DNA of 64,000 nucleotides. It comes from Agrobacterium tumefaciens (lineage in GTDB: Bacteria; Pseudomonadota; Alphaproteobacteria; Rhizobiales; Rhizobiaceae). Under the pieces are notes generated by a model. That model had not been told where the DNA came from. It did no database searches and was given only the letters and a program-made list of their open reading frames with translations. The first letter of the stretch is position 1; each line of letters begins with the position of its first letter. The stretch covers positions 496,001 through 560,000 of the forward strand of contig NZ_CP039903.1 of NCBI RefSeq assembly GCF_005221385.1. The letters are read 5' to 3'. Shown piece after piece: positions 2,293 to 20,217 of the stretch. The translations under genes were made by a program, and so were the position numbers.

Positions 2293-4392
2293 TCAAACGT
2301 GAAGCAGGTCCTCCAGGAACTCTGAACCTGGCGTGACCGCCGAGACGAAGAGATGGTCCCGCGCGCGGGTTGCGGCGACGTAGAGCAATTGTCGCTCTGT
2401 CGCCACGACCTCGTCCAGCTCGAACTCGTCGGCGACCTCATCGATCCGCGTCGCCAGCGGCAGGACCCCCTCATCGCATGCGACGATCAGGACTGCACGG
2501 AATTCCAATCCTTTTGCGAGATGCATCGTACCGATGAGCACTGCCTCTTCCGTGCCCCGCCTGACAAGCGATGAAACTGTCTCGACGGCTGCCAGTTCGG
2601 CCACCTTCGATGCACGAGCGATCTGATCGTTTGATCGACAGAAGATGCCGATCTCGTTGGCTCGTATTCCCTGTTCCAGGAGGTTGCGAAGGAATTGCGC
2701 CGCCGCCGTAGCCTCCTCATCCATTGTAGGTGCAACGACGATAACCGGCTCGACGCCATCGAAGACAGATACAGTTCCCTTGCGTTGATCTTCCTCGCCG
2801 TCGACGTCGCGGACACTTTCGGGAAGCAGCCTGTCCGCCATCCTTCTAATCTGATGCGAGGTGCGATAGTTGACCTTGAGCGTGAACGACCGCCCACGCA
2901 CTTCAATACCCAGCCCCTTCCAGGAAAACGGCTGCTGGAAGATGCGCTGGCCGATATCCCCGGCGAAGAAAAACGAGTCCGGTCGGTTGGGCACTATGGC
3001 GTTCAAGAACCGCAGTTCGGCGACGCCGAGGTCCTGGGCTTCATCGACGACTACATGCGTATAGGGCCTGTCTGCGCGGTCCCGGAAGTGGTCGGTAACC
3101 ACAGTGAACAGGTCGGCAGCGGTCAACAGCGCCTTTGCACGCAATTGCCTGCGTACCTCCGCAAACACTGTCCAGAGTTCATCGCGCTGTTTCGCGCCAA
3201 GTCGATTCTTACGCCCCATCCGCGGCACAGTTGCATAAGTTTCGGCGCTATCGATTTGCCAGGCGTCGATGACGTGCTCCCATTCGGAATTCAGGAACTG
3301 CGGCGTGTATTTCGTTGTGCTGCCCGCATTCGCCGCGTCGGTGATAAGTGCCCTCAGTTTCTCCCGACCGATCAGATAGGCCTTTCGACCCGTCATGAGC
3401 GCGAACAGGTCAGCAGCCGCTTGTTCGAAGGACGATATGGTCACCCTGTCGGCGAGAGAGGGGGTGTCGGCAAGGAGCACGCCAAGCTTGCGCTTCAGCG
3501 CGGCGGCAAGCGGCTCCGAGAAGGTCGTCAAGAGCACCTTCGCCTGAGGCTCGTTGCGGAGAATGCGAGCGACGCGGTGCAAGGCGACCACCGTCTTTCC
3601 GGTGCCGGCCGAGCCGACCACGCGCACCGGTCCGGAGAAGTCTCGATCCACCAACGCCTTCTGCGATGGATGAAGGAAGACTGCCCATTTCTCGAATGGC
3701 TGGTCGAGCGCCGCCGCCAGCTCCTCATGCCCTTCCAGAATACGAAACCGCCGTTGAGCGTCGGGATGGCTATAAGGATCGGAGGTAGCCGGCGGAGTCG
3801 GCTTACTCAGGACACCCGTTGCCGCATATTCCAGCAAAGCCTCGGCTGCTTCCTGGGGTAGATGATTGGCAAGCGTGAAGAATTTGTCTTCGCTTGCACC
3901 GAGGACATCTTTGATCCAGTCCTCGGGGACCCCGATCGACAATGCGTCGTCGGTTGACAGTTTTGAAAACAGCGGCAAAGCAGAAGCCGATGGCGTTGAC
4001 TGAACGAGGAACGGCAACTCTGGCTGTCGCGCCGGCGCCGGCTGGATCACGATCTCTTCAACCCGTTCACGCACTTCGACGATCTGAAGTGCACCTGTGC
4101 GCGGATGGGTCTCGATTCTCCGTCGTTCTGCCCACTTGTAGGCGTCGTCGTGGTGGTCGACGTAGGCGAGCATGACGCTGTCGCCGGTCTTGTGGATGAT
4201 AATCCGGAGATCGCGATTGACCCGCACCGACCAGAAGTTCGGGTCCTTGGACGCATCGATCCTGTGGAACTGCAGGCCTGGCCGGTTCGGATCGGTCTGC
4301 AGATCGAACGCCGTCAGCTTCACCTGCTTCTGTTCGTCATTGGTGAGCTTAGTGAGCGAGGTCGTAAAGCTGTCGGCGAGAATCGTGGGCAT
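2293..4392 (-). CDS. UvrD/REP-family helicase with RelE/ParE-like N-terminal domain
   Basis: 699 residues. Residues 1 to about 95 resemble a RelE/ParE-fold toxin: short basic strands, WSVRVNRDLRIII, and a HHDDAYKWAERR end. A linker follows, then an SF1 helicase with Walker A GSAGTGKT (260-267), Walker B VVVDEAQD, motif III GDIGQRIFQQ, motif IV VNYRTSHQIR, motif V MHLAKGLEF and motif VI LLYVAATRAR. Such enzymes are 3'-5' translocases on single-stranded DNA. The start ATG overlaps the stop of the upstream helicase by one base (TAATG), so the two are translationally coupled. It is the last gene of the five-gene operon starting at 14340. The toxin-like domain may act as a nuclease or a binding module. 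The catalytic state is not decidable by eye. Confidence 0.85.
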   Translation of the reverse strand: MPTILADSFTTSLTKLTNDEQKQVKLTAFDLQTDPNRPGLQFHRIDASKDPNFWSVRVNRDLRIIIHKTGDSVMLAYVDHHDDAYKWAERRRIETHPRTGALQIVEVRERVEEIVIQPAPARQPELPFLVQSTPSASALPLFSKLSTDDALSIGVPEDWIKDVLGASEDKFFTLANHLPQEAAEALLEYAATGVLSKPTPPATSDPYSHPDAQRRFRILEGHEELAAALDQPFEKWAVFLHPSQKALVDRDFSGPVRVVGSAGTGKTVVALHRVARILRNEPQAKVLLTTFSEPLAAALKRKLGVLLADTPSLADRVTISSFEQAAADLFALMTGRKAYLIGREKLRALITDAANAGSTTKYTPQFLNSEWEHVIDAWQIDSAETYATVPRMGRKNRLGAKQRDELWTVFAEVRRQLRAKALLTAADLFTVVTDHFRDRADRPYTHVVVDEAQDLGVAELRFLNAIVPNRPDSFFFAGDIGQRIFQQPFSWKGLGIEVRGRSFTLKVNYRTSHQIRRMADRLLPESVRDVDGEEDQRKGTVSVFDGVEPVIVVAPTMDEEATAAAQFLRNLLEQGIRANEIGIFCRSNDQIARASKVAELAAVETVSSLVRRGTEEAVLIGTMHLAKGLEFRAVLIVACDEGVLPLATRIDEVADEFELDEVVATERQLLYVAATRARDHLFVSAVTPGSEFLEDLLHV

Positions 4393-6467
4393 TACACAAT
4401 CCCCGCTTCAGCGATAAACGGCGACCTCGCCATGACCTTGTCGTCTATGCGGCCACTGAGCGTCATTACCAGCTTGGACTTAGCTCGTGTCATCGCCACG
4501 TAGAACAGCCGTCTTTCCTGTTCCTTCTGGTTTTCCGTCTCGGCATGCACCGACGGCCAAATGCCGTCGTTGACATCCAGCATGATAACCGTGTCGAATT
4601 CCTTTCCTTTTGCCCGCAGCGCCGTCATGAGGTGAATTGGTCGGGACCACATGTCACCGACAGATCGAGCATTCTGTTGCGCTTCGTCATCGTCGATCGG
4701 CACCTGGGCAGTCTGCCGCTTGGCCTCTTCCAGGTCCTCGATGAATCGCTCCAAATCGTCTCCGTATCGGGAGGCAAAACGGCTCAGGTAAAAGAATGGT
4801 GGATCGGCAAAGAAAATGTCCTCGTTGCTCTTTCCGTAATCCTTCTCCATGCCGCTGAGTTGACTTACGGCATCCAAGATTTCGGAAACGGTTTCGCCTC
4901 GTAGTATAGGGCGAATGGCGGACGCAAAGGACTGCGCCATTGCACGACCGTCTTTTTGCTTTTTGAGTTCGCCTGCATAGGAGCCAAGTAAATCTAGTGC
5001 TTCGTCATATGTCCTCGGAGCCGATCTATTCAGATGTGCCTCAAGCTGGCCCTTATCGTTCTTGCTGAGCGGATAACGTTTTACGACGTCACAAAGCGTC
5101 AGCACATCCTCAACAATTTTTCTGGGTCGCGGGCGACCGCGCGCGTCGGCGCAAATGCTGAGTACGTCGATAAGACTATCAAAGGCCTTGCTTAGGAACA
5201 CTTGAAGGTCCTCAGCTGCACAAAAGGGAATATTCTGAGAAGCTAAGAGTATCTGATACGGAATTAACTGTGCCCGTTTTCTGGAAATTAGGGCAAGACG
5301 CCCTTGTGGTGGCTTTTTGCCCGACGAAAGGTCTTTGCGAAACTCTTCGATCGTGCTCACGACCTCGTCAATCGCTTCATGGAACGTGGGTTTGGGACGG
5401 ACTTCAATGGTAGCCGTGGCTGTCTGAACAGCCTGTACGTTCTTTGGAACGCGATTCTTGTTTATTTTTATCAGCCTTTGTGAGTGATCGACGATGTTTG
5501 CGGGGCAACGATAGTTTTTCTCCAGAATGAAGGTCTCAAACTTCTTTGAGAGGTATTTCTCCGGGTTGACAATATATTTGAATGTAGCGCCTCTCCATTC
5601 GAATATTGCCTGATCGTCATCTCCCACAATAACGAGGCTGGCGTCATTAATGGCTGTAATCGCTTTGATCATATTCAGGTCTAGCGGGTTTACGTCCTGA
5701 AATTCATCAACGAGAATATTTGTATATCTTGCTCCGCCCAGAGGTTTTTTGCCCGCCTCGATCTGCTTTAGAAGATCGAGCCAGGCAACATACTTCTGGT
5801 CCTCCAGCGTGAAAAGTGATTGGCTGAACAGGTGGTCGCAGGCCTTGGACCAGAATTTGAGCAACTCCTTGAGGGTCTTCTCTTCATTCCCATCGATGTC
5901 CACCCCCAGGCTCTTCAGATCGCGAAGCGCCGTTTCGAGAATTATGAACAGCCCTTGGTCCTTCAGCCGATCGACGTGCTGCCATTGAATTTCGGCTTTT
6001 TCTCTATGGTTGAAACCCAGCGACTTCAGCAGGTCCATGAGATTCATCACGACCTTGCCAGCGGCGAACTTCTGATGATCAATCATACCTTTGATCAGCT
6101 TATTGTTCTGCCAAACCGGCTGCAATGCGTTCTGTACGCAGAAGGAGCGATCGGCTTCGGACGTGTGGAGTTTTGCGCTATGATGGTTTTGACGGACCCG
6201 GCGATATCCCCAGGCATTGAGGGTGGCGACTTCAACAGAGGAGCGAATTCCGGCAAACTCCGAATTTTCGCCGAGACGCTTGCGCAACTCGTCCCTGGCC
6301 GCACGCGTGAATGTCACGATCAGAAAGCGGGCGCTGCCCTTCTTGCGATCGTAAATCGATTTGCATCGCCACAGCAATGAATGAGTCTTCCCGCTTCCGG
6401 CTGGGGCGAGCAGCCTTATGTCCTCTGCCCAAGACTCACAGAACTGTTTCTGATAGACATCCAGCAT
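4392..6467 (-). CDS. UvrD/PcrA-type SF1 helicase
   Basis: 691 residues with all canonical SF1A motifs: Walker A APAGSGKT (21-28), motif Ia TFTRAARDEL (52-61), Walker B LVDEFQD (252-258), motif III GDDDQAIFEWRG (282-293), motif IV NYRCPANI, motif V RAKGKEFDTVIM and motif VI RRLFYVAMTRAKS. It is related to UvrD but carries its own insertions. Base composition is visibly more AT-rich than its neighbours in the middle section (5,200-5,700), a sign of horizontal origin. Its start lies 42 bp after the methyltransferase stop, and it overlaps the next helicase by one base. The position suggests it works with the restriction-modification genes, for example in processing cut or invading DNA. That role is inference. 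Confidence 0.88.
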   Translation of the reverse strand: MLDVYQKQFCESWAEDIRLLAPAGSGKTHSLLWRCKSIYDRKKGSARFLIVTFTRAARDELRKRLGENSEFAGIRSSVEVATLNAWGYRRVRQNHHSAKLHTSEADRSFCVQNALQPVWQNNKLIKGMIDHQKFAAGKVVMNLMDLLKSLGFNHREKAEIQWQHVDRLKDQGLFIILETALRDLKSLGVDIDGNEEKTLKELLKFWSKACDHLFSQSLFTLEDQKYVAWLDLLKQIEAGKKPLGGARYTNILVDEFQDVNPLDLNMIKAITAINDASLVIVGDDDQAIFEWRGATFKYIVNPEKYLSKKFETFILEKNYRCPANIVDHSQRLIKINKNRVPKNVQAVQTATATIEVRPKPTFHEAIDEVVSTIEEFRKDLSSGKKPPQGRLALISRKRAQLIPYQILLASQNIPFCAAEDLQVFLSKAFDSLIDVLSICADARGRPRPRKIVEDVLTLCDVVKRYPLSKNDKGQLEAHLNRSAPRTYDEALDLLGSYAGELKKQKDGRAMAQSFASAIRPILRGETVSEILDAVSQLSGMEKDYGKSNEDIFFADPPFFYLSRFASRYGDDLERFIEDLEEAKRQTAQVPIDDDEAQQNARSVGDMWSRPIHLMTALRAKGKEFDTVIMLDVNDGIWPSVHAETENQKEQERRLFYVAMTRAKSKLVMTLSGRIDDKVMARSPFIAEAGIV

Positions 6468-6509
6468 TGCATCCCCCCGGAGCTAAGCGTCATTTCGCTT
6501 CACTGTTCC

Positions 6510-9494
6510 TCACACCCCAAACACCTTCAACACCTCGTCCCCGAAGTGGTTGATCACTTTCACCGCGATCCGCCCCGTGCTCGGCCGCGCGAACGGCCGC
6601 GAGGTATCGGCGTAGAGCGACTCCCAGGCTTCCGGGTCGATCTCTGTCCTCAGCGCCGTCTTCAGCGACTTGTAGGGATCGTTCGCGCCGAGGAAGTAGG
6701 CGTGGCGGACGAAGAAGCTCTCCTCGTCGTATTCGGTGTCGATGAACCAGGCGGCGATGCCCTTAATGTCATCAGAGCGGATTTCGCCGGTCGAGGGGTC
6801 GAAGACATCGACGCCGTGGACCTTCACCTTGATCTCACCACCGGGCGCATCGAGGATTTCGACATCCGGCTCGCCGAAGACGACGAAGAGGTTGCCCTTG
6901 CCGGTGTTCTTCAGGTCCTCGGCCATGTGCAGGTCGGGGTTCATGCGTGCCTTCAGGATGGCGAGTGGGCCGAGGCGGTTGAGGTCGGTCGCCTGGGCGT
7001 CGAAATTGAAGGCGCAGGCGATCAGCACGTCGAAGCGGGCGTCGGAAGCCTCGCGGGCGGCGGCGGTAATCTGGCTGCGGGTCAGCGTGCCGAATTCCGG
7101 GCCGATCAGGATCGCCGCGCGTTTCTCGATAGAGCCGCCATCGGCATAGCGGCCCTCGGCGGCGATATAGTTACCCGGCCAGGGCTCGATGGAGTTGAAG
7201 TGGATCGTATCACGCTTCTCCTGCTGATGGACGCCGGCACTTCTCAGATGCGCCAGCACCATCTCCCCGAAATCGGCCTCCGGCATGTTGGCGGGGGTGG
7301 ATGCGCGCGAGGTGATTGCGCCGGCTGCGCCAAGCTCCGCGCCCAGTGTATCCTCGCGGGCGGCGACGACACGATGCGGTGACAGGCTCTCGACGGTGAA
7401 AGGCCCGGCAACGCGCACCTTGGTCTTGTCCTCATAGGGACGGTCATAGAGCGGTTCGACATCGGCGGCGCGGGCGATCGAGGCGTCGATTTCCTTCTGG
7501 CGGGCAATGCGCCCCTCCCACCAGCCGGCATGGAGTTTGCGCACCGCGTCGGTCACGAGATGCACCTTGGCCCCCCCGTCCTTGCTGTCGAGCCAAGCGT
7601 CGAGATCGCGGGGAATTTCCCATTCCTCGAAGGTGGTGGACAGCGCCTCGTTGAGCTGGCGACGCAGCGGCTCGAGTACGTCCTGCCACTTATCCCAGAT
7701 CACGTCGATTTGTGAGTTGTCAGCGATGGATTTGAGAGTAATGCGCGGAGCCCGCTCATAGACGAAACCCTGACGAATGTCGCCAGTCGCCCTGGCGTCG
7801 GGGAGAATCTTACCCGAAACTTCCCGTTCTTTTGCGTGCCCCTCAGGAGTGTCTGAAAGAAAATAGTACGGATACTGGGCGCACATCAGCCTTGTGCGGG
7901 CGAGTGCTAGTGCCACCCGGGAGGTATCGATTGTGATCCAGCGCCGTCCCCATTGCTCAGCGACTGCTGCTGTCGTTCCCGAACCACACGTGGGGTCTAG
8001 CACAAGATCGCCCGGGTCCGTGCTCATTAGTATGCAGCGTTGCACGACCTTTTCTGAGGTTTGCACAACATAAGACATGTCTACCTCGCCGCGGGTGTCG
8101 GTCCACAAGTTTACGACTGGCGAGTATGCGAAATCCAACAGGTAGCGTTTGAGAATTCTTTGGCCGACCTGGGGGAGCAACCGACGGGCACGAGCAATAC
8201 GGTTCAAACCGCTTTGTGTGAACTTGAAATGATATCGTGGAGCACATGGAATAGTCAGTGGCCCCGCCTCAGAAACGTATGAGAAGAACTTGGGGGCGTT
8301 TGGTGATTCCCCGGCTGAAAAAAGGCTGTAGGTGGCGAACAGCCGGTCGCCATCGGGAAGTGTGCGGTAGTCCTCGATCTCAGACGCAATCGCGGGCCGG
8401 AATGCTCCAGACGCCGTCTCAACCCGTTTGTATTCGGCCGCGCCTTCCTCTCCCGGCTGCTTCTTTGTGTAAAGCTGACGGTATTTTGAGAGCTTTACGT
8501 CCTTTGCATACCAGATGATGTAATCATTTGTTCTTCCTAGATGAGCAGCACCCTGTCCTGCCGTTTTTTGAACTGATATCTCCGAGATGAAATTCTTGTC
8601 ACCGAAAACCTCGTCCAGCAGCGCTCTTACCCGGTGAACATTCTCATCACTTATCTGCACGAAGATCGAACCGCTTTCTGTCAGCAATTCCCGCGCCACC
8701 ATCAGCCGGTCGCGCAGATAGGTTAGATAGGAGTGGATGCCGTCCTTCCAGGTGTCGCGGAAGGCCTTCACCTGTTCCGGCTCACGGGAAACGTCCTCCT
8801 TCTTGCCGTCCTTCACGTCCCGGCTCATGGTCGAGACCTGCCAGTTCGAATTGAACTTGATGCCATAGGGCGGGTCGAAATAGATGCACTGCACTTTGCC
8901 GCGCATCTCCTCGCGCTCGGCGAGGCTCGCCATCACCTGCAGCGAGTCGCCGAGGATCATGCGGTTCTGCCAATGCTTGGTGTGCTGGTAGAATTCCGCC
9001 CGCGCCTCCGGATCGGCAATGCCATTGAAATCGGCGAACAGATCGGGCGCGTCCGACTTCTCCTCGCGCGCCCTGTTCGTCCGGCGCTTGAGATCGTCGA
9101 TGATCGCCTTGGGATGCACCTTTTCCTGGATGTAGAGCGGCGGCGCGTTGACCACGAGATCGGACCAGTCCTGCCGGTCCTTGCCGCGCCAGACGAGCTG
9201 GGCGTCGCCGATCTCGATCTCGCCGGTCTCGGCGAGCTTCTTCATCTGCGCCTCAGTGATCCTGATCTTCGCGCCGTTCCAGATGATCTGCGGATCGCGG
9301 TCCATGTCCCGATCCCGCACTTCGCCCTCAGCCAGCGGCCGGTCGCGCGGAATGCGCATCTCACGGGAACTCTCGCCCAGTATCTCCACCTGCTGCTCAT
9401 AGAGCGACGCCATCTCGGCCGTCGGATTGTTCAGCCTCACCGCCTTGTCGTGTGTGAGGGTGGAGACGTCTTTTTCGCGCGGGGTCTTGGCCAT
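6510..9494 (-). CDS. Type III-like site-specific DNA methyltransferase (Mod)
   Basis: 994 residues. The catalytic DPPY (207-210) precedes the AdoMet-binding DPTCGSGTT (500-508), the beta-class order typical of type III Mod subunits, which methylate adenine N6. The intervening 290 residues would hold the target recognition domain. The long N-terminal (about 200) and C-terminal (about 450) extensions make it larger than classic EcoP1 Mod (about 650 residues). Such long versions usually pair with a Res helicase-nuclease, as here. It sits 57 bp after the DUF262 gene and 42 bp before the helicase, in one operon. It should set self-recognition for the whole cluster. The target sequence cannot be read from the protein. 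Confidence 0.9.
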   Translation of the reverse strand: MAKTPREKDVSTLTHDKAVRLNNPTAEMASLYEQQVEILGESSREMRIPRDRPLAEGEVRDRDMDRDPQIIWNGAKIRITEAQMKKLAETGEIEIGDAQLVWRGKDRQDWSDLVVNAPPLYIQEKVHPKAIIDDLKRRTNRAREEKSDAPDLFADFNGIADPEARAEFYQHTKHWQNRMILGDSLQVMASLAEREEMRGKVQCIYFDPPYGIKFNSNWQVSTMSRDVKDGKKEDVSREPEQVKAFRDTWKDGIHSYLTYLRDRLMVARELLTESGSIFVQISDENVHRVRALLDEVFGDKNFISEISVQKTAGQGAAHLGRTNDYIIWYAKDVKLSKYRQLYTKKQPGEEGAAEYKRVETASGAFRPAIASEIEDYRTLPDGDRLFATYSLFSAGESPNAPKFFSYVSEAGPLTIPCAPRYHFKFTQSGLNRIARARRLLPQVGQRILKRYLLDFAYSPVVNLWTDTRGEVDMSYVVQTSEKVVQRCILMSTDPGDLVLDPTCGSGTTAAVAEQWGRRWITIDTSRVALALARTRLMCAQYPYYFLSDTPEGHAKEREVSGKILPDARATGDIRQGFVYERAPRITLKSIADNSQIDVIWDKWQDVLEPLRRQLNEALSTTFEEWEIPRDLDAWLDSKDGGAKVHLVTDAVRKLHAGWWEGRIARQKEIDASIARAADVEPLYDRPYEDKTKVRVAGPFTVESLSPHRVVAAREDTLGAELGAAGAITSRASTPANMPEADFGEMVLAHLRSAGVHQQEKRDTIHFNSIEPWPGNYIAAEGRYADGGSIEKRAAILIGPEFGTLTRSQITAAAREASDARFDVLIACAFNFDAQATDLNRLGPLAILKARMNPDLHMAEDLKNTGKGNLFVVFGEPDVEILDAPGGEIKVKVHGVDVFDPSTGEIRSDDIKGIAAWFIDTEYDEESFFVRHAYFLGANDPYKSLKTALRTEIDPEAWESLYADTSRPFARPSTGRIAVKVINHFGDEVLKVFGV

Positions 9495-9550
9495 CAGCGG
9501 CTTCCTATCATGTGTCTTTCAATCGGCGCGAAGGCCAAGTTCGACGGGGT

Positions 9551-11239
9551 TTAATCCCCGACGTATGCGTGCTCGGTCGTTGCCTCGGATGCAATAGGTT
9601 CGGGAATTTCGAGATCGCCACGTAGCGCAGACAGCAGTTCATTTCCTGCCTTTGCCAGGCGCTCAGCCCGGGAAACTATCCACGCTGGCAGCTCACCTAT
9701 ATCGGTTGTCGCAAGCGAGGGCTCGATGTATTGCTGCGCGAGCTTTTCATCGTCGATGCTGTATTTCGCGACGTAGTTCATCGGATTATTCTTGGAAATT
9801 CGGATGTTCGTCTTGGGGCCTATCAACGCAATGTTTGCCAAGGCGTTGACCAGGGATTCAGGATGGCTGTTGCCGACAAACCCGCGAGGAAAAATGTGAT
9901 GAAACTGCGGCGTAAAACCAGCCACAAGCTCGTCCGAATCGAAACCGATTCTCATGTACGGTTTGTCCCAATCGACGGCTCCTGACTTGTGGATCAGCAG
10001 ATAAAGCAGGAGGCGACCAAATCGGCTGTCGGAGTAGTCGCGCATGAAATCCTCCGACGTCAGCATCGGTAGGTAGCGAATTCTCGCCAGCAGGCGCTCG
10101 AGTGCATCCTTGACGTTCGACGAGTCCGCGATCTCCTTCAGGTCTTCTTCCATCGAGCTCGTAGATGACGTCGAGTAACGTCCGAAACGCGACGCTTGCA
10201 GGAACCAGTAGAAGACCTGATTGAAAGGGGCTTCGGGATAGCGATCCAGCAACGCAGTCAGCGGGACCAAAGCGTTATCCGAAGGAAGGAGAGCATTGCC
10301 CGAGATGCCACGTTCGCGCAGATGCTTGACTGTCAACGCCCACGCCTTCTTCGTTCGGTCCCACGTAGGCAGTATGTGCGCCTCGTTCCAGAAGTCCGTG
10401 TCGATATCCTTGTATCGGATGCGTTTCCGCCCAATGCCGGTGAGGGTGCGGAACACCAGGTTGGGAGTCACGTCAAAGCCGGACTCGGCTAGGCTTTCGA
10501 TATAGGGAAGGTAATGTTGACGAACCCAGCCGGGCGTTCGCGCTGCTACAACACCGAGATAGATGTCGGCCTCGGTGACTCGGGTACCGCGGCTGTTGAG
10601 GCGAGCAAATATTTCGACAACGTCTTCGAGTTCGTTGTCTACCGTGATCAGAACGACTTCCTTGTCACGAGTTTTTCGCAGCCGATCCAGCCTTGTATAG
10701 ACCTCGGTGACGTCCATGCCATCACACAATCCGTCCAGTTTTACTTGCTTGGCGAGGTCCAGAAGTTTCTTTTGATCGGCCTCGTTCTCGACATCGAGGT
10801 TCAGAATATCTCGGATGGGTATGTAGCGCTTGGTCGTGACTTTTCGGGTTGCTGCATTGGCAACAACGAAGAACGGTGGCGTCTTTGCATGGACGTCAAA
10901 CCTGATGTCATACTTGCGAACCAGATCGTCCCACGGCTTTCCTGAATGCCACCAGTATGGCTTGCGGCCACTCAGGATACACAATGCCGTGGTACGCTGC
11001 TGCCCGTCGACCACCCACTGCTTTGGGCCCTGCGAGTCCACGGCCCCCTGGGTTTCTACTCCCGCGCCGCTGTCCCAAATGAGCAACGTTCCGACTGGAT
11101 AGTTGAGCCACAGAGACTCAGCCAAGTCCCTTACTTGGGTAGGCTTCCAGACAAATCCGCGCTGGAACTCAGGAATGCTCCACTCATGACCAACAGACCG
11201 TTTTACAATGTCTTTAACTTTCGCCGATGTGTAAGCCAT
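9551..11239 (-). CDS. DUF262 protein with C-terminal HNH-like (DUF1524) motif
   Basis: 562 residues. The N-terminus has the DUF262 pattern of the ParB/Srx-like fold: IPEFQRGFVWKPTQV, then DGQQR at 78-82, which in GmrS-type proteins is a nucleotide hydrolysis site. The C-terminal part carries HHIFP (447-451) followed by NIALIGPKTN, the DUF1524 variant of the HNH nuclease motif. This is the domain pair of GmrSD-type (type IV) enzymes that cleave modified DNA. Between Res and Mod it is an unusual third nuclease in a type III-like locus. Spacings of 53 bp upstream and 57 bp downstream imply one transcript. Cleavage of modified phage DNA that the Res/Mod pair cannot handle is a plausible but unproven role. 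Confidence 0.85.
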   Translation of the reverse strand: MAYTSAKVKDIVKRSVGHEWSIPEFQRGFVWKPTQVRDLAESLWLNYPVGTLLIWDSGAGVETQGAVDSQGPKQWVVDGQQRTTALCILSGRKPYWWHSGKPWDDLVRKYDIRFDVHAKTPPFFVVANAATRKVTTKRYIPIRDILNLDVENEADQKKLLDLAKQVKLDGLCDGMDVTEVYTRLDRLRKTRDKEVVLITVDNELEDVVEIFARLNSRGTRVTEADIYLGVVAARTPGWVRQHYLPYIESLAESGFDVTPNLVFRTLTGIGRKRIRYKDIDTDFWNEAHILPTWDRTKKAWALTVKHLRERGISGNALLPSDNALVPLTALLDRYPEAPFNQVFYWFLQASRFGRYSTSSTSSMEEDLKEIADSSNVKDALERLLARIRYLPMLTSEDFMRDYSDSRFGRLLLYLLIHKSGAVDWDKPYMRIGFDSDELVAGFTPQFHHIFPRGFVGNSHPESLVNALANIALIGPKTNIRISKNNPMNYVAKYSIDDEKLAQQYIEPSLATTDIGELPAWIVSRAERLAKAGNELLSALRGDLEIPEPIASEATTEHAYVGD

Positions 11240-11292
11240 AATTCCCCTGCGCTCTTCCGACCCTAGTCCCTAGTATTTTTGCGTTTCGTGCT

Positions 11293-14200
11293 TCAAGAAA
11301 CTTCGCGCATAGTTGCCGATCGCTCATTGAGGAAGTTGTCGATCAATTTCCCGTAGTCTTCCTCCATCGCAAAAGCGTTTCGGAATTCAGCAAACGCCCA
11401 ACGACCATAGGCTTTGAGATTGTTGACGCCGGGGACCCAGAGGTTCGTCATGGTCTCGGCCTTGATTTGCTCGTCGAGACCGCGGAAGCCTTTGACCTCC
11501 ACGATCAGGTTCAGCGGATCATCCGGCCCTCGGCCATCATCAACCTGTATGATGAAGTCCGGCAGGTAGCGGCGCGGCACGCTGCCGGAGCGATAGGGCA
11601 CTTCGAAACCGAGCGCCTGATTCTTGACGTAGGAGATCGTGGCCGGATGCGCTTCCACGACTCGGGCAAACTCCGCCTCCCAATCGCTGTCGCAAACGAC
11701 ATAATTTACGTGACTGAGGCGGGTCTCCCAAAGCGTCTGCTTGGTCGTGATGAAGGATACTTGGTCGGTGTAGCCATGCGGATTGTAGGGATCGAGCATC
11801 GCCTTCGCGACACTCTCCCCATCTTCGCCGGCGCTGCGGACGATGGCTTGGTAGATGAGCTCGGATGCTTTCTCCGCCAGCTCGGCATAGGTCAGCATGC
11901 CCGCCCTGGTGCCGCCAGTGAGCTTCAGGCAAGTGGCAATCCAGCGCCGGGTAATGGGCTGGAGCTGATTATAGAGGTAATAGGGAACGTCCTGATCCGG
12001 CTCACGGAAATACATCTCGATGAGCTTCTTGGTGAGATGCGTCGCGACGGTGTTCGGCCGCATGTCATCGAGCGCATCCGGAGAAATGTCATGGCCTTCG
12101 CCGACCAGCCCTTCGAGACGGACCGTACAGGGGCCGACCAATTCTGGCGTCAGGTCGAGGACTGAGTCCGCCGAGAAATTGGCGGAAAAGCTCTCGGAGG
12201 GGAGCTCGGCGCGATAACCGGCAACGCACGGAAAGCGGATGGAAAGGTCGTTGCGCTCTTTCAGCGCATGGACACGTGTGGTCGGCTTCGGTGGTGTTCG
12301 TGTGACCTCCTGGGGTTCGGTGGCGAAGTCGAAGGGAATGCCGAGGATGTCGGCGTATTCCGTGTTGAACAGCCCCCTGTCGTTCAGCTCATAGGACTGG
12401 CGGCGCAGGCCTCGACCAATCACCTGCTCGCAGAGGAGCTGCGTTCCGAATGCGCGAACGCCAAGGATGTGGGTGACCGTGTTGGCATCCCAGCCCTCGG
12501 TCAGCATCGAGACGGAGACGACGCAACGCACCTGCTCCCCGAGCTTGCCCTTCTGCCCGACGGTGTTCATCACTTCGCGCAGTAGTTCGGAATCCGATAG
12601 CTTGTCCGCCGCCGCGGCACCCTCGCGCTCCTTGATCTCCCTGCGGAACTGTTCGATTTCCGCCTCGGCCATATCGCGGAATTTGGAATCCAGCGCCTCG
12701 CCGGATTCGAGCTGCTGGGAATCGATCAGCAGTGTGTTCATGCGCGGCAGCCGATTGCCGTTGCGGTCATCGTAGTTCCGGAAGAGTTCCAGATGCCCGT
12801 AATGCTTTGTCTGGCGCTCACCTTCAACTTCCCGTTCCCAGCCGGAAATCCATTCGAATATGAGCTTCGAACTGGCAGTGTTGTTGCAGACGACGATGAA
12901 CACCGGCGGGACGCCGATGCCGACCTTTTGCCAGGCCTCGAACTCCTTCTCGTAGTGGGAGTAGAGCGAGTAGAGCGCGGTCTGCAGTTCGGCAGGTATG
13001 CTCAACGGATCAAGATCGCCGGATTTGCCCGCCCCCTTCTTCGGCATCTTCTTTCCGATGTGATCCCAAAGATTGCGGAACACGGGGGTGACGGCATTGA
13101 CGGCATTGTCCGACACCGGCACGCGGGGCAGCTTGACGATGCCGCACTCGATAGCATCGACGAGCGAAAAGTCGGAAACCACCCAGGGGAAGAGTGTACC
13201 TTCCTCGTATCCCGATCCACGCAAGAAGAACGGTGTCGCCGAGAGATCATAGACCGCGCGAACGCCGACTTTCCGCTTCAAAGCCTCGATGCCGGAAATC
13301 CAAAGCCGTGCAGCTTCATTGTTTTCCTTGGCTTCGTCCTTTTCCTCGCCCTTCAGTTCATCTTCTTCGTGGCTTCCCGGACGTTCGCGATAGCAATGGT
13401 GCGCCTCGTCGTTGATGACGACGACGTTCTTCATCTGCAGGAGATCGCCGCAGGCCCGCTGAAGCATCTGTCCCTCGGTCTCGAGTTCCTCGATTGCTTC
13501 TCCTTTCCAGCCCTTCATCAGGCGGAGACCTACTGCGTTCAGCTCGTGAGCCTTGCGCCGCTGAAAGACGTGATAGTTGACGATTTCGATCTTCGCCTTG
13601 TTCAGGTCGGGCATCATGTCCTGTGGGACAAGTTCCCGAGAGCGATAGTAGCTATTGCCGTCAGAAGGTTTCAGTACGCGCAGTCGGTCCTTGATGGTGA
13701 TGCCGGGCGCAACGATGAGGAAACCTCTCGAGAACAAACTGGAGTTCGGCTGCCGAGCGGCATTGATTGCTTGCCAGGCAATGAGCATGGCCATGACGGT
13801 TGTCTTGCCGGCGCCGGTGGCCAATTTCAGCGCAAGACGAAAGATTTCTGGGTTGGCATCTCGGTTTGCTTCTTCGAGATGGCGGAAGATGTGAGCGTAC
13901 TGCTTGTTCTTGCGCGCCACCTCGGCAAGCCAGATCGCAGTTTCAACGGCCTCCACCTGGCAATAGAAGGGGCGGGGGCCGGAGAAGTTGTCGCTTCGCC
14001 AATATTGGAGCAATCGCTGGGTAACGGGCGTGACGCCCCAGTCGTTGGGATTGGGAATTGAGCGCCATGACGCGATGTGGCCGCGAATTTCGTTGATGAT
14101 CGGCGTAGGGTTGTAGTGGCTGCTGCCGTCCTTGGTCTGGTCGAGATCAAGCGTAGCCTGCTTTTTTGCATCTGCTTTGATCTTGCGGCTCTTCGGAACG

Positions 14201-14340
14201 GGGGCCACGTATTTCGACCGGCGCCGGCCTTCGATGGGCGGTTGATTGAGCGGCTCGCCACTTTCGGACAGCGCATGATGGCGCTTGGGAACTTCGTATG
14301 GCGAATTAAGAATTGGCTCGGCGTAAAATGGCTTGGTCAT
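11293..14340 (-). CDS. Type III-like restriction subunit (Res): DEAD/DEAH helicase plus PD-(D/E)xK nuclease
   Basis: 1,015 residues from ATG 14340. Motifs in order: Walker A ATGAGKTT, Walker B NDEAHH, motif III SATPFFLRGSG, helicase C-domain motifs GWDANTV and QVIGRGLRR. The C-terminus holds a PD-(D/E)xK nuclease core, YLPDF followed about 20 residues later by EVKG, as in EcoP1/EcoP15 Res. The enzyme should translocate or slide on DNA and cut when paired with Mod. The frame extends 99 bp further upstream, but the ATG at 14340 (Met-Thr-Lys) is preferred because the phosphoesterase gene starts identically within a duplicated leader. First gene of the operon that runs to 2293. A palindrome about 100 bp upstream is a likely operator. 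Confidence 0.9.
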   Translation of the reverse strand: MTKPFYAEPILNSPYEVPKRHHALSESGEPLNQPPIEGRRRSKYVAPVPKSRKIKADAKKQATLDLDQTKDGSSHYNPTPIINEIRGHIASWRSIPNPNDWGVTPVTQRLLQYWRSDNFSGPRPFYCQVEAVETAIWLAEVARKNKQYAHIFRHLEEANRDANPEIFRLALKLATGAGKTTVMAMLIAWQAINAARQPNSSLFSRGFLIVAPGITIKDRLRVLKPSDGNSYYRSRELVPQDMMPDLNKAKIEIVNYHVFQRRKAHELNAVGLRLMKGWKGEAIEELETEGQMLQRACGDLLQMKNVVVINDEAHHCYRERPGSHEEDELKGEEKDEAKENNEAARLWISGIEALKRKVGVRAVYDLSATPFFLRGSGYEEGTLFPWVVSDFSLVDAIECGIVKLPRVPVSDNAVNAVTPVFRNLWDHIGKKMPKKGAGKSGDLDPLSIPAELQTALYSLYSHYEKEFEAWQKVGIGVPPVFIVVCNNTASSKLIFEWISGWEREVEGERQTKHYGHLELFRNYDDRNGNRLPRMNTLLIDSQQLESGEALDSKFRDMAEAEIEQFRREIKEREGAAAADKLSDSELLREVMNTVGQKGKLGEQVRCVVSVSMLTEGWDANTVTHILGVRAFGTQLLCEQVIGRGLRRQSYELNDRGLFNTEYADILGIPFDFATEPQEVTRTPPKPTTRVHALKERNDLSIRFPCVAGYRAELPSESFSANFSADSVLDLTPELVGPCTVRLEGLVGEGHDISPDALDDMRPNTVATHLTKKLIEMYFREPDQDVPYYLYNQLQPITRRWIATCLKLTGGTRAGMLTYAELAEKASELIYQAIVRSAGEDGESVAKAMLDPYNPHGYTDQVSFITTKQTLWETRLSHVNYVVCDSDWEAEFARVVEAHPATISYVKNQALGFEVPYRSGSVPRRYLPDFIIQVDDGRGPDDPLNLIVEVKGFRGLDEQIKAETMTNLWVPGVNNLKAYGRWAFAEFRNAFAMEEDYGKLIDNFLNERSATMREVS

Positions 14341-14460
14341 GCAATCTGTCCCAGAATCGGCATCGCCATTCAATCGCCTCCGCGAGGGTGATGCAACTCC
14401 TACGATGCGGATTACTGTGTTTGGCAAAGAATTGCACACGGAAATTATTTCCGCATTGTA
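14319..14460 (-). repeat. Leader copy 1, upstream of Res
   Basis: About 140 bp covering the first codons, start and upstream region of Res. By eye it is roughly 80% identical to 15498-15639 in front of the phosphoesterase gene, including the start context GCTTGGTCATGCAAT (plus strand) and the palindrome at the distal end. The shared promoter-leader implies co-regulation or duplication of a regulatory cassette. Confidence 0.8.
14439..14453. promoter_or_regulatory. Island palindrome site 1 (upstream of Res)
   Basis: CGGAAATTATTTCCG, a perfect 15-bp palindrome around a central base, about 100 bp before the Res start. Likely operator or activator site. The same word recurs at 15617, 25439 and 27590. 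Confidence 0.65.
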
Positions 14461-14497
14461 GCCCGATAACCGTCTGTTGGATGCGTCTTTGTCCTTG

Positions 14498-15517
14498 TTA
14501 TTTTGGCACCAGGATAAGATTGTCCGTACTTAACAACTGCTCTCCATTCCACCGATACGCGCAGGGCCTTTCTATGTAGTCGAGGCAGAGGGCATTGTGT
14601 GCAGCAAGTTCAGGCTGACTGAGCATTTTGTAGTGCCCGAAGAACACAGGTTTTTCCTGCGCGCCATAAAAGTTGATCCCGCCACTTTCGATCACAGGCG
14701 TATCCGGAAGGTCGTCTGAACGAGGCACGGACAGCGCAGAGCTTCGCCACGTGCGATCGCCTGCCTGCCACCATTTCAGCCGGACCGCGGTGCGGGTATG
14801 TCCTTTTATGTCCGTGAAAGAATGGCCGTGCGGCAGCTCGGCCTCTGGCCCCTTTAGACTGGATAGGACCGCGTCCGCGAATGGACTGGCATCCGTCTCG
14901 AACGCCAACTCCTGCAAATCATCTCGCTTCAAACGCGCATCGCCGGTTCGGCGTCGAATAGTGTCGATGTGACGATCGTCCCAGTATGCGTGGACAAGTC
15001 TGATCCCGGGCAGGTCCATAAACAGTGGTAGCGTCATGAACCAATCGAGCACTTCTTGCGTCTGAGGTGCGCCTATTGGAAATTCTTTCAGAAACGTTTC
15101 GTGCTGTGCGGTATTCTTTAGGGTGTGAGCCCGCATGAACCCGTCGCTAGTGCGCTCCGAATTTTCGCCGTGCTCATGATAGAGTAGCGCGTTGAGTTCG
15201 TGATTGCCCATGATCGCTATCGCGTGACCGTGCCGTTGCATTGCGCGCACGAGAGAGATCACCACGGAGTTTTGGTCCCCTCCATCAATGAAGTCCCCGA
15301 GAAAGGCGACAATTCGGCCCTCAGGATGTGCCCAGCATGAAGCTGATTCCCGATAGCCGAGGTAAGTGAGAGTTTTAGTTAGGCGATCCAGATCAGCGTG
15401 AATGTCGGGAATGACGTCGATATGTGAATGGTTTTGTAGCAAACGAACACCCTCGCTAGCTAGGTATGACGCCTTGGCATCATCTATGCAGTTCATCGGC
15501 GTAAATAGCTTGGTCAT
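14498..15517 (-). CDS. Metallophosphoesterase (calcineurin-like phosphatase family)
   Basis: 339 residues from ATG 15517. The family metal-binding motifs appear in order: DIHAD (DxH), GDFIDGG (GDxxDRG type), GNHE, then HAYWD and GHYK supplying later histidines. This is the arrangement of PP2A/bis-nucleoside tetraphosphatase-like phosphatases. Substrate could be a phosphoprotein, dinucleotide or nucleic-acid end. The longer frame to 15574 is rejected because Met-Thr-Lys at 15517 sits at the same place in the duplicated leader as the Res start. The gene is divergent from zorA and lies 157 bp upstream of the Res start in the same direction, so it may belong functionally with either system. Confidence 0.85.
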   Translation of the reverse strand: MTKLFTPMNCIDDAKASYLASEGVRLLQNHSHIDVIPDIHADLDRLTKTLTYLGYRESASCWAHPEGRIVAFLGDFIDGGDQNSVVISLVRAMQRHGHAIAIMGNHELNALLYHEHGENSERTSDGFMRAHTLKNTAQHETFLKEFPIGAPQTQEVLDWFMTLPLFMDLPGIRLVHAYWDDRHIDTIRRRTGDARLKRDDLQELAFETDASPFADAVLSSLKGPEAELPHGHSFTDIKGHTRTAVRLKWWQAGDRTWRSSALSVPRSDDLPDTPVIESGGINFYGAQEKPVFFGHYKMLSQPELAAHNALCLDYIERPCAYRWNGEQLLSTDNLILVPK

Positions 15518-15639
15518 GCAATTGGTCCCAGAATCGGTATCGCCGATACAATCGGCCCAACGAGGGCAATGCAACTCCTGTGATGCTCATTGCTGTGTTT
15601 CGCGAAGAACTGCACACGGAAATCATTTCCGTATTGCAA
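15498..15639 (-). repeat. Leader copy 2, upstream of the phosphoesterase
   Basis: Homologous to 14319-14460 over about 140 bp, with the same start context and distal palindrome. It also forms the left part of the divergent region in front of zorA. Confidence 0.8.
15617..15631. promoter_or_regulatory. Island palindrome site 2 (phosphoesterase/zorA divergent region)
   Basis: CGGAAATCATTTCCG, about 100 bp before the phosphoesterase start and 246 bp before zorA. It could act on either strand. Confidence 0.65.
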
Positions 15640-15808
15640 CAGAATCCAGGACGCCAAAGATTTGCTGCGCGAGCGTCCCGGATGGGCATCTCCGGTCTCA
15701 CACACTTCCGAACGGGGATTCGCCGCTCTTTCGCAAGTTGTGGAAAATAAATCACATCGCAGTTCAATTTTGTGGAGTTTCGGGCAAACCGCCTGGGTGT
15801 ACTTGATT

Positions 15809-15820
15809 GCACGGCCGTGC
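15809..15820. promoter_or_regulatory. Palindrome in the putative zorA promoter
   Basis: GCACGGCCGTGC, 12 bp perfect, lies between hexamers that could be the -35 and -10 of zorA, 57 bp before the GTG start. A repressor bound here would block transcription of the Zorya operon. Confidence 0.35.
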
Positions 15821-15876
15821 CTCTAATAGTTTCCAATCCGTTACCGCTCATGGGTAGTGGTTGGGGATGGGATTAA

Positions 15877-17907
15877 GTGGTTCAGGAAATTGGAAGTTTC
15901 GTCGTTGCCTCGATTCTTGACGCGGCGAATTATCTTGTAAAGGACGCGGCTGCTCCGGGTATCGTCGCTCTGGGAATTGTCGTTCTTCTGGTGATTTTTA
16001 CTGCCGCTTTCTTTCGGGAAGTCTTTCAGCGCCGGAAAGCAGTTCAATGGCTCAAGCGCGAAATTCAGAACAGTCCTACGGGGGCTGACTTCAGCCGTGA
16101 CATTGACGTTGTGTCCGCCTCAATCAAGGAAAGCAGCACAAACAAGTACCGCCGGCAACTGGCGGCGGCGTGGGACAAGTACAAGGAGACGCTTGTACCT
16201 CACGAAGAAGACGGCAAGGTCGTGCTTCGCAATGCCGTCCGACCGTCCATGTTTCTCAATCCAGAGGACTTGGGTTTTGGGGTTGGCTTTTGGCGCATCG
16301 TACCCGGGCTCTTTGTTTCGGTTGGCCTTTTTCTGACGTTCCTGGGGTTGATCGCCGCTCTCTCTACGATGGCGCAAGGAGCAGAGATCGATAGCGGTGT
16401 CATGCGACAGCTGCTTTCTGTGGCCTCGGCGAAGTTTATTATGTCGTTGACGGGGCTTTTCTGCTCAATCGTCTTCACGATCCTTCTTAGAAGCATCTAC
16501 GGGCGACTGGAGCAGTCGATCCATGAACTATGTGCCGCCATTGAGCAGCGTCTCACCTATATCAGTCTGGAGGCCCTTGCCACAGAACAGCTGAAGGCAA
16601 CCCGGGAACAGCGGGAGCATTTCCGATTGATTGGGATGGAGTTGGTCGCGGAGATTGGCCGTCCATTGAGAGAGGAGCTCCCGGCGGCAATCCAGAGTTC
16701 GATCGCCGGTGCAATGGCACCGATCGTAGAGCGAGTGGGCAAACTCGGCGCAGAGGGCGTGGGAGATATGGTGTCCGGAATTTCGGACAAGCTTACCGAT
16801 TCAATCGGTATTGCGCTAACTGAGGCTAGCCAGAAAATCTCGGATGCAGGTGAAAGGCTTGGGTTGCTTGCTGACCGTCTCGATCAAAGCTCGGGGCGGA
16901 TAGGCTCGGAGATGGAAGGCGTTACGGAGCGTGTCGCCCAAGCTGTGGAAGACCTCCGTGCGGCTATCACGAACACGGCCGAGGTAACCGGGGGGACGTT
17001 TAACGAAGGTGCCGAGAAGCTCCTTGCGGTCATGAACCGTACGCTTGAGGGCATTCGCGATAATACGGGCGAAGGTGCGCGCGCCATGTCGGCAGCGGCT
17101 GAGGACATGCGCCAGGCGGCCGAATCCTTCAAGCAGGAGATCGAGTCCGCAGCGCGAACAGGAACAGAAGCTGCGCAGGAACGCATGAAACTTGCAGGTC
17201 AGCAGGTGAGCTCGGCTATCGGCGTTGCCGGCAAGGACGTTGCAGAGGTGTTCAGCCGCACCAGCGCGGAGATTGCTCGGGTCGCGGAAGAGGTTTCCGA
17301 GAAAGCCGGCGCCGGCTTGCTCGCTCCGCTGGCTGAAATAGGCAACAGGTTCGAAGGTCTGGTCAAGCAGCTCAATGACGGCACGTCAGACATGCGGCGC
17401 ATGGCCGATGGAGTGAAGGCTGGTGCCGATGCTTCGGAAAAGGCTGCGGGTACCTTTAACGGGGCGGCAAGCTCACTCGTGGCTGCTGTCACTCCCGTGA
17501 AAGCCGTCGTGGATCGCATGGAAGGTTCGATCCGGCAACTTACTGACAGCACGCAACACGCGGCGAGCACCGTATCGAGGTCTTCGGAGGCTACCGCCGA
17601 GTCCGCAGCCTCTGCTCTTGCCGCTGCGAAGGAAATCCTCCAGGCGGAAGCGAAATCCATCGAGAACGCGCTGGGCGGTGTCTCTGTGATGCTGGAACGT
17701 CTGAAGGGGCAGGGCGACCGCCTCGATGAAATGGATGGAAAGCTCGGCCAGGCTTTCGATCTCTACACGGAAAATGTGGAGAAGTCCGTCCAGGGCATGT
17801 TCGGTCACGTGCGGGATCTGCAGGAAAGGCTAAATCCTGCGCTCGACACCATGCGTGAAATCGTTGAACAGGCCGAGCAATTCGCTCCGCAGTCGCGGAG
17901 AGCCTGA
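15877..17907 (+). CDS. zorA: Zorya protein ZorA (MotA-like proton-channel subunit)
   Basis: 676 residues, GTG start preceded by GGGGATGG. Hydrophobic segments near residues 29-49, 145-166 and 185-205 match a MotA/TolQ/ExbB-type channel subunit. After about residue 220 the protein is a long Ala/Glu/Lys-rich helical tail of about 450 residues. In the characterised Zorya systems ZorA and ZorB form a proton-driven membrane motor with a long cytoplasmic tail that senses phage entry. The longer ATG candidate at 15850 runs into a stop, so GTG 15877 is the start. The stop overlaps the zorB start (TGATG), the first of several overlaps in the operon. Confidence 0.9.
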   Translation: MVQEIGSFVVASILDAANYLVKDAAAPGIVALGIVVLLVIFTAAFFREVFQRRKAVQWLKREIQNSPTGADFSRDIDVVSASIKESSTNKYRRQLAAAWDKYKETLVPHEEDGKVVLRNAVRPSMFLNPEDLGFGVGFWRIVPGLFVSVGLFLTFLGLIAALSTMAQGAEIDSGVMRQLLSVASAKFIMSLTGLFCSIVFTILLRSIYGRLEQSIHELCAAIEQRLTYISLEALATEQLKATREQREHFRLIGMELVAEIGRPLREELPAAIQSSIAGAMAPIVERVGKLGAEGVGDMVSGISDKLTDSIGIALTEASQKISDAGERLGLLADRLDQSSGRIGSEMEGVTERVAQAVEDLRAAITNTAEVTGGTFNEGAEKLLAVMNRTLEGIRDNTGEGARAMSAAAEDMRQAAESFKQEIESAARTGTEAAQERMKLAGQQVSSAIGVAGKDVAEVFSRTSAEIARVAEEVSEKAGAGLLAPLAEIGNRFEGLVKQLNDGTSDMRRMADGVKAGADASEKAAGTFNGAASSLVAAVTPVKAVVDRMEGSIRQLTDSTQHAASTVSRSSEATAESAASALAAAKEILQAEAKSIENALGGVSVMLERLKGQGDRLDEMDGKLGQAFDLYTENVEKSVQGMFGHVRDLQERLNPALDTMREIVEQAEQFAPQSRRA

Positions 17908-18905
17908 TGCGCGGCGGTTTCCGGACGCGTTACAAAGAGGAAGAGGAGGAGAGCGCATTTGTGTCCATGACGGACATGACTGTCAGCTTCCTCTTCATCA
18001 TCATCCTTTTGCTAGCTTACTTCGCCCAGCAATATAGCGAAAAGGACACCGTACCCAGGCCCATACATGAGGAGGTCATTAAAGAAAGGAATGTCGCGCA
18101 ACAGGAGATAGTCCGACTGCAGGCAATCGTCGCTGTTCATGAGAAGACGATCGCTAACCTCAAGGAGGAGATTAACAGGAAGCAGGTGGAGATCGAGCGG
18201 TTACAGGCTGAGATCGCGAAGCTGCAGGCCGAGATCAAAGAGCTAAGAGAGGCGCTTGAAAAGCTTCGGAAAGTTGACCCACTGGAAGCCTACCTGGCCA
18301 CGTCGGCGATCGAGAGACGACGAATTCTCGAAACTCTACGCGATCAGCTGAAGATTGATTTTCCTGATCTCGAGGTGGTTATCAGTGAAGAAACCGACGC
18401 TTTGCGCTTTCAGGGCGACGGCCTATTTGCAACCGGATCATCCACGTTGCGCCCCGACCGGAGGGCAATCGTGGAAACTGTCGCAACGAGGCTATCGCAG
18501 ATTTTGCCCTGCTATACGATTGGCCCGCGTTCGAAGTGGACGGCCGAATGTAATCCAGGCAATGCGATTATTGAAGCTTTGCAGATTGAAGGACATACCG
18601 ACTCAACCGGGGATTTTACGGCCAACCTGGCCCTGTCCACTAATCGCGCAAACAGCACTTTTTCTACAATTCTCGGCAAATCCGGTGAGCTAGTCGATTT
18701 TCTGAACTTCCGACATCAACCCGTGTTGTCCGTCGCCGGATACGGCCAAATGCGTCCGGTTAAGGACAACTCGACGAAGGAGGGACGAGATACGAACCGC
18801 CGCGTCGACCTGCGAATCATCATGTACACGCCTAGCCAGTCGGCGGAAATCGACCGCATTCGTCAGGCGTTGAGTCAAGACAGCTCCGGGGGTATCGCGA
18901 ATTGA
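17907..18905 (+). CDS. zorB: Zorya protein ZorB (MotB/OmpA-like stator subunit)
   Basis: 332 residues. One transmembrane helix near residues 24-40 carries the expected aspartate just before or within it (D23 in SMTDMTVSF), the likely proton-binding residue. A coiled-coil stretch follows (about 60-125, heavy in Glu, Lys, Gln). The C-terminal OmpA-like peptidoglycan-binding domain has EGHTDSTG and a later NRRVDLRI. This is the architecture of MotB-like ZorB, which anchors the motor to the cell wall. ATG 17907 overlaps the zorA stop by one base. The gene ends inside the zorC start. Confidence 0.9.
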   Translation: MRGGFRTRYKEEEEESAFVSMTDMTVSFLFIIILLLAYFAQQYSEKDTVPRPIHEEVIKERNVAQQEIVRLQAIVAVHEKTIANLKEEINRKQVEIERLQAEIAKLQAEIKELREALEKLRKVDPLEAYLATSAIERRRILETLRDQLKIDFPDLEVVISEETDALRFQGDGLFATGSSTLRPDRRAIVETVATRLSQILPCYTIGPRSKWTAECNPGNAIIEALQIEGHTDSTGDFTANLALSTNRANSTFSTILGKSGELVDFLNFRHQPVLSVAGYGQMRPVKDNSTKEGRDTNRRVDLRIIMYTPSQSAEIDRIRQALSQDSSGGIAN

Positions 18906-20209: not shown

Positions 20210-20217
20210 GTGAAAAA

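Follow-up and report, generated by a model that had tools for sequence, protein, structure and literature searches.

Type III restriction–modification (R-M) systems of the EcoP1/EcoP15 kind, composed of Mod and Res, recognize an asymmetric site, methylate one strand of it, and cleave DNA 25–27 bp away, two sites being needed. Accessory effectors embedded in defence operons are already known from BREX, Hma and type I R-M systems. ARMADA type II has a PglX-like methyltransferase and two helicases, one BrxHII-like and one YprA-like (PMC12458937). Here we consider a five-gene operon in a stretch of 64,000 nucleotides from Agrobacterium tumefaciens (NZ_CP039903.1, positions 496,001 to 560,000; this whole stretch is ‘the window’ below, and coordinates count from its first letter). 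Comparison across genomes shows that the conserved unit in this operon is three genes in fixed order, Res-Mod-RelE/UvrD, not five. We consider it likely that these three genes are a type III-like R-M core, with internal slots for accessory genes that can be swapped and that in many cases are defence genes.

The operon occupies 2293–14340 on the minus strand; its five genes are co-directional and tightly packed, with gaps of 53, 56 and 42 bp, none larger than 56 bp, and one overlap of 1 bp. In the direction of reading, they are:

11293–14340, minus strand: Res, core gene 1, 1015 aa, BPTD_3080 family, a superfamily 2 (SF2) helicase with a C-terminal PD-(D/E)xK nuclease
9551–11239, minus strand: DUF262 (GmrSD_N) protein, slot A cargo, 562 aa, with an HHIFP...N HNH-like end
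6510–9494, minus strand: Mod, core gene 2, 994 aa, an N4/N6 amino-methyltransferase in which DPPY precedes the S-adenosylmethionine (AdoMet) motif
4392–6467, minus strand: UvrDa, a UvrD/PcrA-like superfamily 1 helicase, slot B cargo, 691 aa (Pfam UvrD-helicase and UvrD_C)
2293–4392, minus strand: RelE/UvrD, core gene 3, 699 aa, a RelE-fold domain (residues 1–90) fused to a UvrD-like helicase

These five kinds of gene had been named correctly in a sequence-only reading of this DNA, with which the family scans agree. Res matches NCBIfam NF046055 (BPTD_3080) at 1271 bits and Pfam ResIII at 36.6 bits; its match to PADLOC REase_III is weak and partial (26.9 bits, 48 residues), and NCBIfam gives BPTD_3080 as a separate family. 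Judged by sequence motifs, the SF2 motor lies within residues 170–647 and the PD-(D/E)xK motif within 923–952, and in 59 aligned sequences the catalytic P, D, E and K are 100% conserved and the key motif residues invariant. Mod matches Pfam N6_N4_Mtase at 119 bits and PADLOC MTase_III PDLC03632 at 1175 bits over residues 97–993. Both UvrDa and RelE/UvrD resemble GajB and PcrA/UvrD in the family scans. The functions that we ascribe to core and cargo below are inferred from sequence throughout.

The census behind the three-gene unit drew Res relatives from 37 loci on named contigs and from two genome samples. In the sample of the order, 25 of 397 genomes had a match over the family cut-off, and in that of the phylum 27 of 398 did, the window's own genome counting in both. 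Neighbourhoods were fetched for 45 places in the two samples; four genomes over the cut-off (G251, G559, G497 and G534) were left out and one below it (G651) was taken in. Among the 81 loci inspected (37 contig, 44 survey), L038 and L107 yielded no Res open reading frame (ORF). A locus was eligible if its Res pieces summed to at least 880 aa and at least 9 kb of DNA followed Res; the count leaves out the window and the duplicate L094, and takes the near relatives L002, L003 and L005 separately. Of the resulting 57 eligible loci, 51 belong to the main clade (profile score >1200) and six to a distant Res subfamily. Mod lies downstream of Res on the same strand in 49 of the 51 main-clade loci, and the full order Res-Mod-RelE/UvrD is present in 40. 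In the distant subfamily the full order is missing without exception (0/6), with neither Mod nor RelE/UvrD in place; a Mod-like-scoring ORF is present somewhere in each of these six loci.

The association also holds when it is approached from the third gene. A search of the 398 phylum genomes with RelE/UvrD gave a match in 27. In 19 of these, the window's own genome among them, identity reached at least 49%; Res is on the same contig in 17 of the 19 and on another in G412. The eight genomes with matches at 30–37% identity have no Res over the cut-off. On plasmids, Res accompanies RelE/UvrD (at least 48% identity) in 10 of 11 records. The core also occurs alone: bare three-gene operons with both slots empty were found at L033 (where Res is split across two frames), L098, L118 and L126, and, as annotated, on the conjugative plasmid p1NCPPB4222 of Pseudomonas avellanae. 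In all, the loci with this core come from Alphaproteobacteria and Gammaproteobacteria and include plasmids. As a separate observation, on the Methylomagnum plasmid L151 (9980–19174) Res, a small gene and Mod are followed, in the expected place of RelE/UvrD, by a CBASS phospholipase and a nucleotidyltransferase; no RelE/UvrD match was found in this record, the gene table of which is incomplete.

What varies among these loci is the content of the two intervals within the core, slot A between Res and Mod and slot B between Mod and RelE/UvrD. Taking a slot of less than 150 bp as empty, slot A is empty in six and slot B in eight of the 44 full loci besides the window. For the slot scan, an ORF had to be at least 120 aa long, run in the direction of the core and stay clear of the slot boundaries; this left 84 ORFs from 37 loci, the window being one, and excluded, for example, a GmrSD-like ORF in slot A of L099. 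With longest-ORF gene calling in GC-rich DNA some slot genes may be misplaced. The 84 ORFs make up 60 families, of which 49 have a single member, and two loci have a homologue in common in slot A in 41 of 378 pairs and in slot B in 13 of 496. Family matches include GmrSD_N (10 of the 84), HNH_2 (three), REase-ARP (two) and ThsB TIR (two), together with RhuM, SLOG, PIN, NYN, DUF3644, AAA_15 and an SNase-like protein, and PADLOC candidates in the slots are HEC-07, PDC-S05, S11 and S13. A single GmrSD-like family is found in slot A of nine full loci, including the window. Among slots of at least 400 bp, leaving out three that lack an ORF of 100 aa, the longest ORF is co-directional with the core in 57 of 68, versus 44 of 79 flank stretches (Fisher p 3e-4); with this excess, the slots have little likeness to sites of random insertion, though the longest ORF runs opposite to the core in 11.

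Exchange of parts is also apparent among near relatives of the window, namely L003 of Rhizobium altiplani, L005 of Shinella sp. and L002 of R. rhizogenes. Between the window and these loci, DNA identity is ~89–97% across Res and the region upstream of it and ~85–94% across RelE/UvrD, and slots A and B yield no alignment; the alignment breaks ~50 bp before the Res stop, and resumes at the Mod start codon and within 4 bp of the RelE/UvrD start. The features of the window that bear on this exchange are:

8055–8582, minus strand: variable region of Mod (~residues 305–480), probably for target recognition
14318–14458, minus strand: Res leader, 141 bp, holding the Res start region and the inverted repeat CGGAAATNATTTCCG at 14439–14453
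15496–15636, minus strand: second copy of the leader, ahead of the phosphatase gene, ~85% identical to the Res leader
14498–15574, minus strand: metallophosphatase gene (Pfam Metallophos), between the two leader copies

Among seven near relatives (21 pairs), the Mod segment at about residues 305–480 is 24–37% identical, compared with 78–95% before and 76–91% after it. We take this segment to be the place of the target-recognition domain in this class of methyltransferase; since it is replaced between near relatives, Mod looks like a specificity module under exchange. The inverted repeat is kept in all seven aligned leader copies, with differences confined to the first or central base, and the duplicated leader with CGGAAATNATTTCCG looks like a putative operator shared by the Res operon and the phosphatase gene; promoter and terminator scans gave nothing above chance. 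Of the loci compared, only L003 and L005 also have the phosphatase gene, and L002, with no phosphatase match, has a single leader mixing features of both copies. The position of the phosphatase gene is thus a probable third cargo site in the window lineage, and the pattern would fit a third cassette gained or lost by recombination between leaders.

The third core gene adds a fusion protein to the Res-Mod pair. The N-terminus of RelE/UvrD is predicted with high confidence to adopt the RelE/YafQ/YoeB fold, its sequence-profile match to the PDB being weak (YoeB, E 0.008), and the protein as modelled has a UvrD/Rep/PcrA fold, the full-length model being of only moderate confidence (mean predicted local distance difference test score, pLDDT, of 69.6). 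Over nearly its full length it is 31% identical to the product of the UvrD gene of L143, a locus which we assign to ARMADA type II because of its annotated gene order. By this sequence comparison RelE/UvrD is an ArmD homologue, and ArmD is reported to be essential in ARMADA type II (PMC12458937).

Considering these findings together, one may envisage the following scenario for the type III-like core with exchangeable cargo. Mod would methylate host sites selected by its recognition domain, and Res, guided by Mod to unmethylated sites, would travel along DNA by its SF2 motor and cut with its PD-(D/E)xK nuclease. The ArmD-like RelE/UvrD helicase would be a required partner acting on the engaged or cut DNA. 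As for its RelE-fold domain, it may cut the RNA of invader transcripts under translation, or perhaps serve in docking or sensing. The slot cargo would then supply a second layer; in the window, the predicted GmrSD-like nuclease of slot A would probably act against modified phage DNA that escapes Res-Mod, and slot B would add a UvrD helicase of a type that elsewhere occurs in the vicinity of Zorya.

Several observations weigh against this scenario and need to be kept in view. Full order is absent from 11 of the 51 eligible main-clade loci (L007, L015, L020–L023, L110, L112, L121, L135 and L136). Nine of these have Res then Mod with no RelE/UvrD after them, so that some lineages may do without the third gene; in L007 and L022 a RelE/UvrD match is confined to the first 62–69 residues, and in L015 the three core genes are rearranged. 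G042 has RelE/UvrD at 54% identity at a contig edge and no Res match in the genome. The exceptional plasmid record, L140 of Qipengyuania, has RelE/UvrD without Res; there (7787–19757) a gene for a TM0106-type RecB-like nuclease lies nearby and one for a DUF4011 protein follows, a third setting for this fusion. The role given to RelE/UvrD is transferred from ArmD across a match of 31%, and an ArmD D454N mutant lost defence only partly (PMC12458937). As for the cargo, the longest ORF lies on the opposite strand in 11 slots, and three slots of at least 400 bp are without an ORF of 100 aa; part of the cargo may therefore be mere insertion. No Pfam match at 0.01 was obtained for 14 of 30 singly scanned slot proteins. 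The family scan covered the slot ORFs, a further 130 flank ORFs being listed only. In the literature searched, no experiment on a Res-Mod-RelE/UvrD locus was found.

Some of these points would also be expected if the core were an R-M system whose gaps are insertion hot spots of a defence island, with cargo that has no working link to it. The strong turnover of cargo, the opposite-strand slots, the confinement of the family scan to slot ORFs, and the presence of Zorya-like and other genes outside the core all favour such neutral parking. We regard it as rather unlikely, though deserving serious weight, because cargo is mostly co-directional with the core at a frequency not seen in the flanks (57/68 vs 44/79) and because one GmrSD-like family returns to slot A in nine full loci. 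In the opposite direction, one might go further than the type III-like core with exchangeable cargo and propose an unnamed, widespread platform in which RelE/UvrD is an adaptor, shared with ARMADA, that couples recognition of unmarked DNA to the effector in slot A or B; the slots would hold plug-ins, secondary effectors that step in once the core is blocked by a phage and that are exchanged along with new Mod recognition domains. This extension is speculative, and we hold it to be doubtful at present.

We find it improbable that the RelE-fold domain is the main effector, in the sense of an R-M-guarded toxin that halts translation by abortive infection once unmodified DNA is sensed by the core or the core is inhibited. 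The high-confidence fold and the invariance of R63, H81, D82, Y85 and W87, with R57 nearly invariant, among 18 aligned RelE/UvrD N-termini (four ARMADA-type ones included) speak for a toxin. Against it, ARMADA, with its homologous ArmD, is described as non-abortive (PMC12458937), Res keeps its catalytic residues in 59 of 59 sequences, and there is no separate antitoxin gene inside the bare operons, the genes outside which were not looked at.

The two cargo genes of the window differ in how far they can be placed. The DUF262 protein matches Pfam GmrSD_N at 96 bits and, as its best PADLOC match, HEC-05 at 107.9 bits; it retains DGQQR and HHIFP...N, and Pfam GmrSD_C gave no match. Its identity to DUF262 cargo at 11 other loci is only 20–25%, which makes separate recruitment of a protein of this kind probable. 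UvrDa is absent from both slots in all 44 other full core loci; at L096 a relative lies just downstream of RelE/UvrD, outside the core, and a ZorD-like gene precedes Res. Among 385 class genomes, a search at 1e-60 found UvrDa in the window's own and in no other; at 1e-50 it was found in six of 397 order genomes (own included; 5/396 others). No plasmid matched at 1e-60, and at 1e-20 the plasmid matches were of only 24–25%. In the six neighbourhoods of relatives examined, which include L166 as the best one of 80 viral-contig loci, the relative adjoins a complete Zorya-like set at L163–L165, lies one gene from a ZorD-like gene at L166, and at L162, where Res and Mod are missing, lies 1.5 kb upstream of RelE/UvrD. 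A housekeeping UvrD is rejected both by these settings near Zorya-like genes or RelE/UvrD and by the rarity of the gene, and UvrDa looks like a defence-associated helicase that here occupies slot B.

These results allow the sequence-only reading to be revised. Its enlarged type III-like restriction system with a helicase of its own is supported, and its type IV-like DUF262 gene inside the operon fits complementary action on modified DNA, for which TgvAB and BrxU are precedents (PMC11411939, PMC12839542). The packing of five leftward genes is as it described, and of its two helicases RelE/UvrD belongs to the core; UvrDa does not, and a conserved five-gene operon has to be abandoned, since the five are rarely neighbours elsewhere and L096 is the one full locus with a UvrDa relative, outside the slots. 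That all five products cooperate as one integrated restriction system, with two helicases processing the ends, is very unlikely. In its favour are the co-directional close packing with its one overlap and the company of UvrDa relatives at two loci: in L096 the one beyond the core is accompanied by a DUF262-like protein (DGQQR, 24.8% identical to that of the window), there also downstream, and in L166 a relative of this DUF262-like protein lies ~6.6 kb upstream. Against it, UvrDa is in a slot at 0 of 44 other full loci, its relatives in 5 of 396 other order genomes were, where read, mostly near Zorya-like genes, and bare three-gene operons exist.

The surroundings of the operon deserve a brief description. 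Divergent from it, at 15877–23316 on the plus strand, lies a four-gene set of MotA/ExbB, OmpA, EH_Signature and SNF2 helicase families, which reads as a complete Zorya type I system; its proteins are 96–99% identical in L002, L003 and L005. BLAST matches to ZorA, B, C or D also flank the core in L006, L096, L097, L099, L105, L108 and L109, several being cut by locus ends, and this recurrence in seven loci besides the window lineage suggests a preferred pairing of Zorya with the core. To the left of the operon, at 144–1154 on the plus strand, is an FtsH-like peptidase M41 gene (Pfam Peptidase_M41).

What had looked like a one-off five-gene arrangement is thus replaced by a rule, a three-gene restriction core with two internal slots. 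New anti-phage genes may be sought in the slots, given their 60 families and the 14 of 30 singly scanned proteins that lack a Pfam match. The link of the newly reported ArmD helicase with a classical-looking restriction system makes the role of the RelE-UvrD fusion testable in two backgrounds.

Lastly, we compare the locus with known systems. The papers searched, few of them subscription ones, yielded no description of a Res-Mod core with RelE/UvrD and slots, and no paper on BPTD_3080 was found in that literature. Family scans of the five window proteins returned ResIII, GmrSD_N, N6_N4_Mtase and UvrD-type families (for PADLOC, among the matches listed). With ARMADA type II the locus shares a methyltransferase, helicases and a RelE-UvrD protein (ArmD) encoded by the last gene (PMC12458937). 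Membership is rejected, as the other three defining genes were not seen in these scans, among the matches listed; in the ARMADA-like loci L143 and L144, the annotation shows an N-6 DNA methylase together with two DEAD/DEAH helicases. ARMADA was not at the place examined in E. coli ATCC 8739. Gabija is rejected as well: both window helicases match GajB models (155.8 and 104.8 bits), and no GajA-type OLD/AAA_15 family appears in the Pfam scans of the five proteins. Hma, given as helicase, m5C methylase and ATPase genes (PMC8565338), is rejected because the sole methyltransferase here is of N4/N6 type and no Hma model is among the PADLOC matches listed. BREX, with BrxU, is similar in having a host-marking core and varied nuclease effectors, GmrSD-like ones included, inside or adjoining it (PMC12839542); its core genes differ, PglZ, BrxC and PglX families being matched by none of the five proteins in the Pfam and NCBIfam scans. 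The embedding of GmrSD-like type IV genes is shared with TgvAB in a type I R-M operon and with HEC genes in Hma, and complementary action has been proposed for such genes (PMC11411939); the type I R-M or Hma host operons have cores different from that of the window. The core pair resembles type III R-M, with which it has in common an N4/N6 methyltransferase with an internal variable region and DPPY before the AdoMet motif, and, in a shared operon with Mod, a Res that is an SF2 helicase with a C-terminal PD-(D/E)xK nuclease. The window operon differs from type III R-M in that Res comes first and matches PADLOC type III Res models weakly and partially, Mod is 994 aa long, the third gene is RelE/UvrD, and two cargo slots lie within.

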